64,000 bases of DNA from Corallococcus sp. NCRR. Lineage in GTDB: Bacteria; Myxococcota; Myxococcia; Myxococcales; Myxococcaceae. The number at the start of each line of letters is the position of its first letter. The first letter of the stretch is position 1. Location: the NCBI RefSeq assembly GCF_026965535.1, contig NZ_CP114039.1:1736001-1800000 (forward strand), in the 5' to 3' direction. Below the pieces are notes generated by a model. That model saw nothing but the letters and a program-made list of their open reading frames with translations, was not told where the DNA came from and did not search any database. Of the stretch, positions 61,881 to 64,000 are shown in pieces. The position numbers were made by a program, and so were the translations under genes.

Positions 61881-62672
61881 CTAGAAGTCCTCCGCCACGA
61901 GCAGGCAGTCCCAGCCGTCATACGTGCCGTGGTACGACTCCACGATGTCTTGGATCTCCTCGGCCACCGCGTCCACCCGCGCGTCGTCCACGGTGTCCAC
62001 CCGGTGGAAGTCCATGCGCCACTCCACCCCGAGCACGCTCCCGGGCGCCCGGACGAGCTCACACCGGAAGCCCTGGAACCCCGCGCTCCTCAGCCCGTCC
62101 TCCGCGTCCTGCGCGAACGCCCCCACCTGGAAGGACACGCGGTGCTCTACCCTGCGGGCCACGTCCAGCGGCTCCCCCTCCGCTCGCAGGAGCGCGACCC
62201 GCTGGCGGTTCATCCTCAACTGATAGTGCAGGGGCGGCGGGAAGAGCATCCGGAGATACGCCGTCCAGTGGGGGTCCCACGTCCGTGACACGCCCACGTC
62301 ATAGGTCCCCTGATGGGCCCGCACGAGCGGCCGTACCTGCCTGGCCGAGATGGACTTCGGGCCATACAGGTAGACGAACTGCACGCCTTGATCCACGAGG
62401 TGCCCGACCCTGAGCAGCCCCAGGGGACGCAAGCACGCCTCCAGCGCGCCCTGCACCGCGAACACCGCGTCCTGCTCGTCGCTGTCCCGGAGCCCGTTCG
62501 ACATCGGGTTCTTCAACGGGAGGGCCAGTCGCCAGAGCACGGGGTGACTGGCCATGGGCGCGAGCGTATTGGCGCCCAGGTCGATGCCCACGGTCTGTGG
62601 CCCCTGCGTGGACCACCGGAAGTAGTCCTCGAAGGCTTCCCGCCAGGGCTTCTCGAAGGACGGAGCGTTCAT
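61881..62672 (-). CDS. DUF695/RraB-like protein
   Basis: 263 aa. N-terminal DUF695-type domain (about 1-145; VGIDLGANTLAPMASHPVLW, FPPPLHYQLRMNRQRVAL) and C-terminal RraB-like domain (about 165-263; RVEHRVSFQVGAFAQDAEDG, EIQDIVESYHGTYDGWDCLL), RraB being a regulator of RNase E. The two-domain order is known in DUF695 proteins. The stop codons of this gene and yhaN are immediately adjacent. Confidence 0.85.
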   Translation of the reverse strand: MNAPSFEKPWREAFEDYFRWSTQGPQTVGIDLGANTLAPMASHPVLWRLALPLKNPMSNGLRDSDEQDAVFAVQGALEACLRPLGLLRVGHLVDQGVQFVYLYGPKSISARQVRPLVRAHQGTYDVGVSRTWDPHWTAYLRMLFPPPLHYQLRMNRQRVALLRAEGEPLDVARRVEHRVSFQVGAFAQDAEDGLRSAGFQGFRCELVRAPGSVLGVEWRMDFHRVDTVDDARVDAVAEEIQDIVESYHGTYDGWDCLLVAEDF

Positions 62673-62716
62673 GCCGGGCGATTCTACCCGCCGCGCGGCA
62701 CCAGACCCTGGCGCAC

Positions 62717-62758
62717 AAAAAAATACTGGGAGCGCGCCCCCTCGACGCGCTCCCAGTA
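62717..62758 (-). terminator. Rho-independent terminator, minus strand
   Basis: A 13-bp stem TACTGGGAGCGCG (62724-62736) with CGCGCTCCCAGTA (62746-62758), 9-nt loop, followed on the minus strand by a T7 run (complement of the A's at 62717-62723). It stops transcripts that cross 62758-63013 leftward; no protein gene feeds it. Confidence 0.8.
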
Positions 62759-63013
62759 ACTCAACCCCTCCCCCGAGGGGTCCCCCTCTCGGATGCGGCC
62801 CCCAAAGCTCCGCGTCCGTCCTGCTTTTCCTTCAAGACGTCGACTACCGAAAACCTTGAGTCCCGGAAGATCGACCCCCGAAACCCTTTCCCCCGCTGCC
62901 CGGTCCGCTCTTGCGTCCCGAGCCCTTGGACCCTGGTGGCTCTGCCCCCAGCATCCCCACCTCGCCTTCAATACGTCGGCCGCGAAAAACCTTGGTTCGG
63001 CCCTGTTTTTTTT
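62758..63013. ncRNA. Candidate structured RNA locus, three repeated units, strand uncertain
   Basis: About 255 bp without a credible protein, bounded by a minus-strand terminator on the left and a plus-strand terminator-like hairpin on the right. It holds three related units: CTTCAAGACGTCGACTACCG (then AAAACCTTG) from 62830, a shorter GGAAGATCGACCCCCGAAACCC at 62865-62886, and CTTCAATACGTCGGCCGCG (then AAAAACCTTGG) from 62966. The unit repeats every 136 bp for the outer pair. Such repeated short stems between terminators look like an sRNA or leader. I recognise no named RNA (not tmRNA, RNase P or 6S by motif). Confidence 0.4.
62978..63013 (+). terminator. Terminator-like hairpin with T8, plus strand
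   Basis: GGCCG (62978-62982) pairs with CGGCC (62998-63002), an inner AACC-TT-GGTT stem (62988-62997) with a small bulge, then T8 at 63006-63013. It would end a plus-strand transcript before the next gene's promoter. Confidence 0.5.
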
Positions 63014-63053
63014 CGCCGGCCCCCTCTGAAGAGGCCCGCGTCAGCGCTCCTGC

Positions 63054-63059
63054 TACAGT
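63054..63059 (+). promoter_or_regulatory. Putative -10 box TACAGT
   Basis: TACAGT lies 21 nt before the ATG at 63081, with GGAGGGG as ribosome site between. No -35 box. Confidence 0.35.
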
Positions 63060-63080
63060 GGCCCACCCTGGAGGGGCGCC

Positions 63081-64000
63081 ATGCGGAAGACGTCGGCGGT
63101 GGTCATTGGAGGCGTCGTGCTCCTGCTCCTCATTGGAGCCGGGGTCTTCTGGTGGCCGCGCCCCACCCCCACCGCCCCCGCGGCCCCACCGGCCGCCCAC
63201 GCCTCGCGCCGCCAGCTCCCCCCCGCGCCGCCCCCGCCGCCCCAGGGCGCCCTCCAGGTCCAGGGCCGCGTCGTCGACCTCCAGGGCCGGCCCGTCGCCG
63301 GCATCGAGGTCTCCGCCTCCGTCCCGCTGCCCGGAGAGACCCTGACGGAGCTGCCGTGTGACACGGCCGAGCCCGACGTGTCCCTGGCCTCGGAGGACTG
63401 CCTCACGTCCCCCGCCAACCTCTGGGTCCGGGAGCTGGTGGAGGCCCACCGGGGCGGGGCCTTCGTCCTGTCGCGCACCACCTCCGCCCAGGACGGCTCC
63501 TTCACCCTGGAGGGCCTGCCCCAGGGGACGGTCACCCTCTGGGCCCTGGGCGCCCAGGGCGCGGGACTCCTGGAGGACGTCGCCTCCGGCACCCAGGACG
63601 TGACGCTGGAGCTCGAGGCCAGCCAGGCGCTCACGGGCCGCGTGGTGGACGAGGACGGCGCCCCGCTCTCCCAGGTCCAGGTGACCGTGATGCATCTGGG
63701 CACGGCGCGCTTCTTCGACGCGAAGACCGGCGCGGACGGCCGCTTCTCCGTGGGCCCCCTGCCCGACGACACCTATGGCCTGCTCGCCGCCCGGCAGGGA
63801 CGCATCACCCTGTGGATGCGAGGGGTGGCCGTGGGTCCCCTGCCGGAGGACGTGGTGCTGTACACGCCCCGGCGCATGGTGGGCACCGTGGTGGACGGCG
63901 AGCACCCCGTCGCTGGCGCCACCGTCACGGTGGCCGACACCGATCTCGTCGCCACCACCGACGCCCAGGGGCGCTTCACCTTCGAAGGAATGACCCCCGA
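63081..64000 (+). CDS. Carboxypeptidase-regulatory-like domain protein (truncated by window end)
   Basis: ATG 63081 with GGAGGGG upstream; open to the right edge, so partial (at least 306 codons). N-terminal membrane anchor (VVIGGVVLLLLIGAGVFWW), a Pro/Ala-rich linker, then at least three Ig-like carboxypeptidase-regulatory domains: VQGRVVDLQGRPVAGIEVSA, LTGRVVDEDGAPLSQVQVTV, VGTVVDGEHPVAGATVTVAD. Typical envelope proteins of myxobacteria. Confidence 0.8.
   Translation, partial: MRKTSAVVIGGVVLLLLIGAGVFWWPRPTPTAPAAPPAAHASRRQLPPAPPPPPQGALQVQGRVVDLQGRPVAGIEVSASVPLPGETLTELPCDTAEPDVSLASEDCLTSPANLWVRELVEAHRGGAFVLSRTTSAQDGSFTLEGLPQGTVTLWALGAQGAGLLEDVASGTQDVTLELEASQALTGRVVDEDGAPLSQVQVTVMHLGTARFFDAKTGADGRFSVGPLPDDTYGLLAARQGRITLWMRGVAVGPLPEDVVLYTPRRMVGTVVDGEHPVAGATVTVADTDLVATTDAQGRFTFEGMTP

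Follow-up and report, generated by a model that had tools for sequence, protein, structure and literature searches.

The locus and its features

The window (the whole stretch of 64,000 nucleotides of Corallococcus sp. NCRR analysed here) contains, close to its right end, a gene-free stretch that very probably codes for an RNA conserved in three related bacterial genera, which is strongly folded and composed of repeated hairpin modules. The RNA is flanked in the window by YhaN-like and CarboxypepD_reg genes. The features are:

61881–62672, minus strand: DUF695 + RraB protein gene (Pfam), lying here between the RNA and the YhaN-like gene
62717–63014, minus strand: the whole structured RNA gene (5′ end put at ∼63014 from the onset of conservation, 3′ end taken from the terminator)
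63002–63014, minus strand: A-tract, presumed 5′ end; conservation in Corallococcus begins here (by eye)
62978–63002, minus strand: 5′ hairpin GGCCG/CGGCC (pairing by eye), which would show the first CAAGG motif in its loop
62965–62997, minus strand: unit 1 (CCAAGGUUUUUCG...CGUAUUGAAGG), with a copy of the 30-nt repeat D1
62928–62956, minus strand: hairpin H1 of unit 1, tip GGC-AGA-GCC, strong covariation (helix 1)
62898–62930, minus strand: unit 2 (UCCAAGGGCUC...) with hairpin H2 (covariation helix 2)
62858–62886, minus strand: hairpin H3 of unit 2 (covariation helix 3)
62829–62860, minus strand: unit 3 (CUCAAGGUUUUCGG...CGUCUUGAAGG), with a copy of the 30-nt repeat D1
62790–62818, minus strand: G-rich hairpin of unit 3 (helices 2 and 3 of alignment A6)
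62765–62780, minus strand: hairpin CCCCUC-GGGG-GAGGGG (folding)
62717–62758, minus strand: intrinsic terminator of the RNA (terminator scan; helix 4 of A6)

An earlier inspection of the letters (the sequence-only reading) had proposed at 62758–63013 a possible novel sRNA of ∼250 nt, on either strand, with three related units between a minus-strand terminator and a plus-strand T8 hairpin. The locus, the minus-strand terminator and the repeats stood up to our analysis; the T8 hairpin, the third unit and the length did not. The RNA reads through the terminator to 62717, so that it is ∼298 nt long (minus strand, ∼63014 down to 62717). The T8 is simply the A-tract close to the 5′ end of the RNA, read on the plus strand, and the hairpin was absent from the output of our terminator scan, which permits loops of 3–8 only. 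Two of the three units are the copies of the 30-nt repeat (62829–62858 and 62965–62994, 80% identical; the best 30-nt self-match of the RNA has 24 identities out of 30, against a maximum of 22 among 300 shuffles); the third (presumably 62868–62886) is one arm of the hairpin at 62858–62886, and the middle unit is instead placed by between-genus comparison at about 62898–62930. Seven runs of five G are found in the RNA (shuffled mean 3.8), a number reached in 36 out of 2000 shuffles.

The terminator consists of a 15-pair hairpin from 62758 to 62724 followed by T7, i.e. the GC-rich hairpin and U-run of an ncRNA ended by an intrinsic terminator; two terminator-like sites, overlapping each other, were found in 2.5 kb (shuffled mean 0.6). 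Its loop, GUCGAGGGGG, is kept between genera while two stem pairs are altered on both sides, and a terminator with this loop closes every RNA that was read to its end. Seven third-genus loci (L093, L099, L100, L103, L140, L142 and L143) have, on the same strand just downstream of the terminator, another hairpin; its loop is GUCGGGGGG, and a T-run accompanies it. Short matches to the terminator are also found elsewhere in the window genome (contig C1, near 658383, 680835, 5843655 and 8672898), so this hairpin may be a favoured type of terminator.

Comparison by eye suggests a common order within a module: an exposed (C)UCAAGG-like segment, a small hairpin, a linker rich in G, and another hairpin whose tip is often GGGG or AGA. 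By the same count there are three modules in Corallococcus, four in Citreicoccus, and three in some genomes of the third genus but one in others. Citreicoccus and the third-genus RNAs with three modules show the small hairpin clearly, and it is weak in units 1 and 3 of Corallococcus; the G-rich hairpin of unit 3 is the counterpart of the GGGG-loop hairpin in Citreicoccus and the third genus. In the one-module form (eight genomes aligned) the 5′ loop and the linker are nearly invariant. The modules resemble one another, as covariance model R3 (see below) matches two places ∼130 nt apart within a single RNA in three genomes (G089, G098 and G101). Variation within hairpins is seen as well: the tip of H2 is CGC-AAGA-GCG in the window and CGC-AGA-GCG in most relatives, and the stem of the 5′ hairpin reads GGUCG/CGACC in one other locus (L018).

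No convincing protein gene was found at 62758–63013, as the sequence-only reading had it. In each of the 16 loci compared, that of the window among them, ORFs of at least 40 codons cross the RNA, but none is shared by all 16; one start peptide is common to five loci, in which the ORF lengths range from 56 to 196 a.a. A protein-coding reading was accordingly rejected. A scan for sigma-70-type promoters gave no sites, which counts against a separate ncRNA gene.

Distribution of the RNA

43 out of 96 genomes of the family contain the RNA according to two covariance models (R1 and R3) taken together: 15 out of 16 Corallococcus, 2 out of 2 Citreicoccus, 26 out of 27 genomes of a third genus (g41, which we take to be Myxococcus in the wide sense) and none of the 51 genomes of other genera. 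R1 was built from 14 Corallococcus and Citreicoccus genomes and matches 33 of the 96 at E ≤ 0.1, including 18 third-genus genomes (E ≤ 1.1e-5), none of which was in its training set. R3 matches 42 of the 96 at E ≤ 0.01 (13 of these 42 supplied training sequences) and 25 of the 27 third-genus genomes; in two genomes (G012 and G015) its match spans only part of the model. Covariance search in relatives had been proposed along with the possible novel sRNA, and its outcome supports that proposal well: three genera have homologues in which base changes compensate each other, and Rfam gave no match.

Searches by blastn agree with this distribution (59 genomes, the window's own included): the RNA was found in 14 out of 15 other Corallococcus genomes (E ≤ 2.0e-26), with some copies interrupted by contig ends, and in one further genus; the other matches at E ≤ 1 are many, short and chance-like. 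The Corallococcus genome without a hit is G004, in which the YhaN-like gene ends about 160 bases from a contig end. The window genome itself has one strong match (E 1.3e-152; the next best has E 0.208). R3 gave weak second hits in three genomes (G086:C13, E 0.0017; G015:C403, E 0.005; and G102:C1, E 0.0084).

In an order-wide search of 145 genomes (49 of them outside the family, if all 96 family genomes are included), 42 have a match at E ≤ 0.001, all in the same three genera, although weak homologues can be missed because searches of more than 40 genomes use stricter filters. The sole match among the 51 other-genus genomes (G075; E 0.033, and 0.09 in a second search, which returned 12 weak hits, nine of them at E 0.95–4.9) was judged to be chance; this hit and those in G029 (E 0.19) and G104 (E 0.35) look protein-coding by eye, have no terminator and were dropped (G104 has a strong R3 match at another place). 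A pattern scan gave nine stretches, five in Corallococcus or Citreicoccus and four, taken as chance, in other organisms.

No Rfam family was matched above its gathering cut-off: Rfam release 15 gave four matches over 62500–63200, all at chance level (E ≥ 1.4), and none at E ≤ 0.1 for four orthologous loci.

Covariation, folding and strand

Compensatory changes exceed those of shuffled controls in all three alignments that we used (the aligned sequences are related, so the fractions of shuffles are not probabilities). In A3 (MAFFT, structure ignored, 14 sequences, 30 proposed pairs), both sides have changed in 8 of the 30 pairs and in 23 cells, as in none of 500 shuffles; 94.2% of the paired cells can pair, compared with at most 53.0% when the partners are slid. 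The number of further pair types in A3 is not above shuffles (222/500), and two of the pairs inside H2 do not form in nine and seven of the 14 rows. A5 (29 sequences, fitted to the structure) has both-side changes in 16 of 30 pairs and 82 cells (0/500 shuffles). A6 (13 sequences) covers the 3′ module and the terminator: both-side changes are found in 8 of 29 pairs, two terminator pairs included (1/500 shuffles as high), and in 26 cells (0/500), and further pair types are only modestly above shuffles (20/500). Helix 1 of A6, the small hairpin beside CAAGG, pairs in 89.2% of cells, with the failures mostly in Corallococcus rows (by eye). Lack of covariation in relatives, named by the sequence-only reading as an outcome that would speak against an RNA, is thus not what the alignments give.

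Folding of the minus strand of 62717–63013 gives −147.1 kcal/mol and z −7.07, a stability matched by 0/200 shuffles; the z of −1.85 for the plus strand refers to a stretch that lacks most of the terminator and is not comparable with this value. Like for like (eight RNAs, 60 shuffles each), the window RNA has z −8.56 on the minus versus −4.10 on the plus strand with the terminator included, and −5.42 versus −1.85 with it removed. Without their terminators, z on the RNA strand lies between −3.05 and −5.90 for four Corallococcus or Citreicoccus RNAs, and is −6.92 and −4.42 for two third-genus RNAs with three modules. Two one-module RNAs, however, show no excess folding stability (z −0.50 and −0.36), whereas their opposite strands have z −4.63 and −4.58, and this speaks against an ncRNA gene. 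The opposite strands of three more loci (L024, L093 and L103) also beat shuffles (z −6.23, −5.66 and −4.94), so that thermodynamics alone leaves the strand unsettled.

The strand is indicated by the helices themselves, in which G-U cells far exceed A-C cells: 90:0 in A3, 123:3 in A5 and 47:5 in A6 (a count that leans towards the minus strand, from which the helices were proposed). A functional opposite strand would be expected to show A-C, and we therefore assign the RNA to the minus strand and not, as had been suggested, to either strand. Taking together what was computed (hairpins that covary, the strand, the terminator, and the occurrence of one RNA beside different neighbours in three genera), we consider it highly likely from these sequence comparisons that the minus strand at 62717–63014 carries a conserved gene for a structured ncRNA in Corallococcus sp. 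NCRR; this confidence covers the gene, its structure and its strand only, and leaves the mechanism aside. The minus strand from 63014 to 62717 would then be a separate gene, its product a structured regulatory RNA ∼300 nt long, presumably transcribed as a discrete sRNA, either from its own promoter or through processing.

Genomic contexts

Genomic contexts of the RNA differ between genera. In both Corallococcus and Citreicoccus, a gene for an AAA_27/YhaN-like ATPase converges with the RNA, whose upstream neighbour is divergent. The third-genus genomes that were read have the RNA directly downstream of rsgA, or of rsgA and a TAXI-type gene, in the same orientation, with a presumed lipoprotein gene convergent on the other side (the window genome has its rsgA at another place, away from the RNA). 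The occurrence of the same RNA at unrelated places with different neighbours argues for an independent gene, but the distance from the rsgA stop codon to the start of the RNA is as little as tens of bases in some genomes, where the RNA could be part of an mRNA.

The link to DUF695/RraB genes, which had been suggested as a guide to homologues, is not supported: the RNA directly adjoins the YhaN-like gene in many Corallococcus genomes and is near rsgA in the third genus. The DUF695/RraB gene, missing from the gap between the YhaN-like gene and the RNA in many relatives, is an occasional neighbour outside the RNA system.

Possible functions of the RNA

Repeated modules in varying number look like a protein-sequestering RNA. 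We tentatively favour a multivalent RNA that would hold an RNA-binding protein off its mRNA targets, with each module (the exposed (C)UCAAGG-like segment, a hairpin and the G-rich linker or hairpin) as one putative binding site, so that one, three or four sites would be present per RNA. The sequestered protein would be neither CsrA nor Hfq. CsrA (PF02599) gave no match at E ≤ 0.001 in the window genome, to which this search was confined (the control was positive in 3 of 14 genomes), and a CsrA sponge was rejected on this ground; Hfq (PF17209) was found in none of six genomes (control positive in 5 of 14), in agreement with PMC5684412, according to which no hfq homologue was found in myxobacteria. 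Even more speculatively, the RNA might be a lineage-specific sponge, Csr-like but independent of CsrA, in which the number of modules (1, 3 or 4) has been tuned by evolution to titrate an RNA-binding protein in bacteria without Hfq, perhaps as a control of growth against multicellular development.

Base pairing by way of CUCAAGG comes close to sequestration in likelihood: in a trans-acting, Hfq-free sRNA, the repeated CUCAAGG(U/A)UUU or the G-rich loops would pair with mRNAs. This would fit the repetition of the motif and its placement in loops or linkers, the near invariance of the 5′ loop and linker in the eight one-module RNAs, and the precedent of Pxr, which shows that a myxobacterial sRNA can work without Hfq (PMC5684412). 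But the motif drifts by genome (CUCAAGG, CUCAAGA, CUCGAGU, CUCAGGU), a poor fit to a fixed target seed, and pairing with the 16S anti-Shine–Dalgarno end is no better than in shuffles for any of five RNAs, a result that also led us to reject a Shine–Dalgarno mimic. The arrangement in the third genus, with the RNA after rsgA or rsgA and the TAXI-type gene on the same strand and sometimes tens of bases from the stop codon, would also suit a processed 3′-UTR or readthrough element of the upstream mRNA acting in cis on stability or termination. Such a cis effect within the rsgA mRNA could apply to the third genus, but it leaves Corallococcus unexplained: there and in Citreicoccus the upstream gene is divergent, rsgA of the window genome is elsewhere, and the RNA structure is still kept. 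As a general account we regard it as unlikely.

It is improbable that the locus is a bidirectional or extended terminator, or a REP-like intergenic spacer without RNA function: internal hairpins covary, the G-U bias favours one strand, the RNA is kept at two unrelated places, and each genome searched has one full copy, bar the few weak second hits, even though a hairpin and U-run do form the 3′ end, the 5′ hairpin is followed by T8 on the opposite strand, the third-genus locus lies between converging genes, the terminator hairpin has short matches elsewhere in the window genome, and the opposite strands of several RNAs fold well too. Slightly less probable again is that the CAAGG-N14-CGU elements act in tandem as promoters of an alternative sigma factor and not as RNA modules; a count by eye does give a spacing of 14 nt between CAAGG and CGU in the units (about 15 in unit 2), but where the small hairpin forms, bases across this spacing pair and co-vary, as RNA would (helix 1 of A6, one pair changed on both sides). 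Hardly credible, finally, is an antisense RNA to the converging YhaN-like ATPase gene, as several species (the window's included) have intervening genes of about 0.5–4 kb and the third genus has the RNA at another place; the tail-to-tail arrangement in Corallococcus and Citreicoccus, with matches about 10–50 bp apart in several genomes, is what would speak for it.

The favoured sequestering RNA has counterparts in the CsrB/RsmZ-type sRNAs, which likewise contain several similar hairpin modules in a number varying among relatives (see also PMC12047976 and PMC4894983). Unlike those systems, the window genome has no detected protein of the CsrA family, and a GGA loop does not appear to be the motif shared by the modules: the shared loops are AGA, GGGG or CAAGG, and GGA is seen at the tip of H2 only in two Citreicoccus rows and one Corallococcus row (by eye). 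Pxr of Myxococcus xanthus, an sRNA downstream of the response-regulator gene pxrR with three predicted stem loops (PMC5684412, PMC11928866 and PMC10217877), is the only myxobacterial sRNA that stood out among the matches listed in the literature searched. Both Pxr and the present RNA are noncoding RNAs with hairpins in hosts in which Hfq was not found. The present RNA differs from Pxr in location and description: its modules are repeated, and it lies beside YhaN-like or rsgA genes, with flanks (YhaN-like and CarboxypepD_reg in the window, rsgA and TAXI-type in the third genus) that do not place pxrR/pxrK upstream. Among the openly licensed papers listed on myxobacterial sRNAs, transcriptomes and structured-RNA surveys we recognised nothing as the present RNA, and a search of PMC6791715 gave no hit to terms for noncoding or small RNA or intergenic regions.

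A second strongly structured myxobacterial RNA beside Pxr, kept across Corallococcus, Citreicoccus and probably Myxococcus, would lend itself to deletion and pull-down in bacteria that serve as a model of multicellularity. The variation in module number provides a natural dosage series, with the one-module form as a minimal version for dissection.

Gene gain beside the RNA

The stretch between the YhaN-like gene and the terminator of the RNA (61881–62716 in the window) is a site of gene gain in Corallococcus. The window has the DUF695/RraB gene there, as does G003 (by eye); G002 and G006 have two different small ORFs, of which one is shared with G008 and G014; and, again by eye, G015 has YeeE-like genes and G005 has TauE-like and rhodanese-like ORFs. 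The gap is nearly empty in several other genomes. In other genera of the family, inspection by eye found no RNA beside the YhaN-like gene in the stretches from eight genomes (G016, G017, G018, G022, G024, G025, G026 and G034). In three genomes of such genera (L055, L065 and L066) the YhaN-like gene is followed by an isocitrate lyase gene (by eye); in Corallococcus the RNA may thus have come later to its position next to the YhaN-like gene. One third-genus context has a further gene: a spermidine-synthase-like gene (by eye) lies between the TAXI-type gene and a one-module RNA in G106 (C1, 2594500–2597433).
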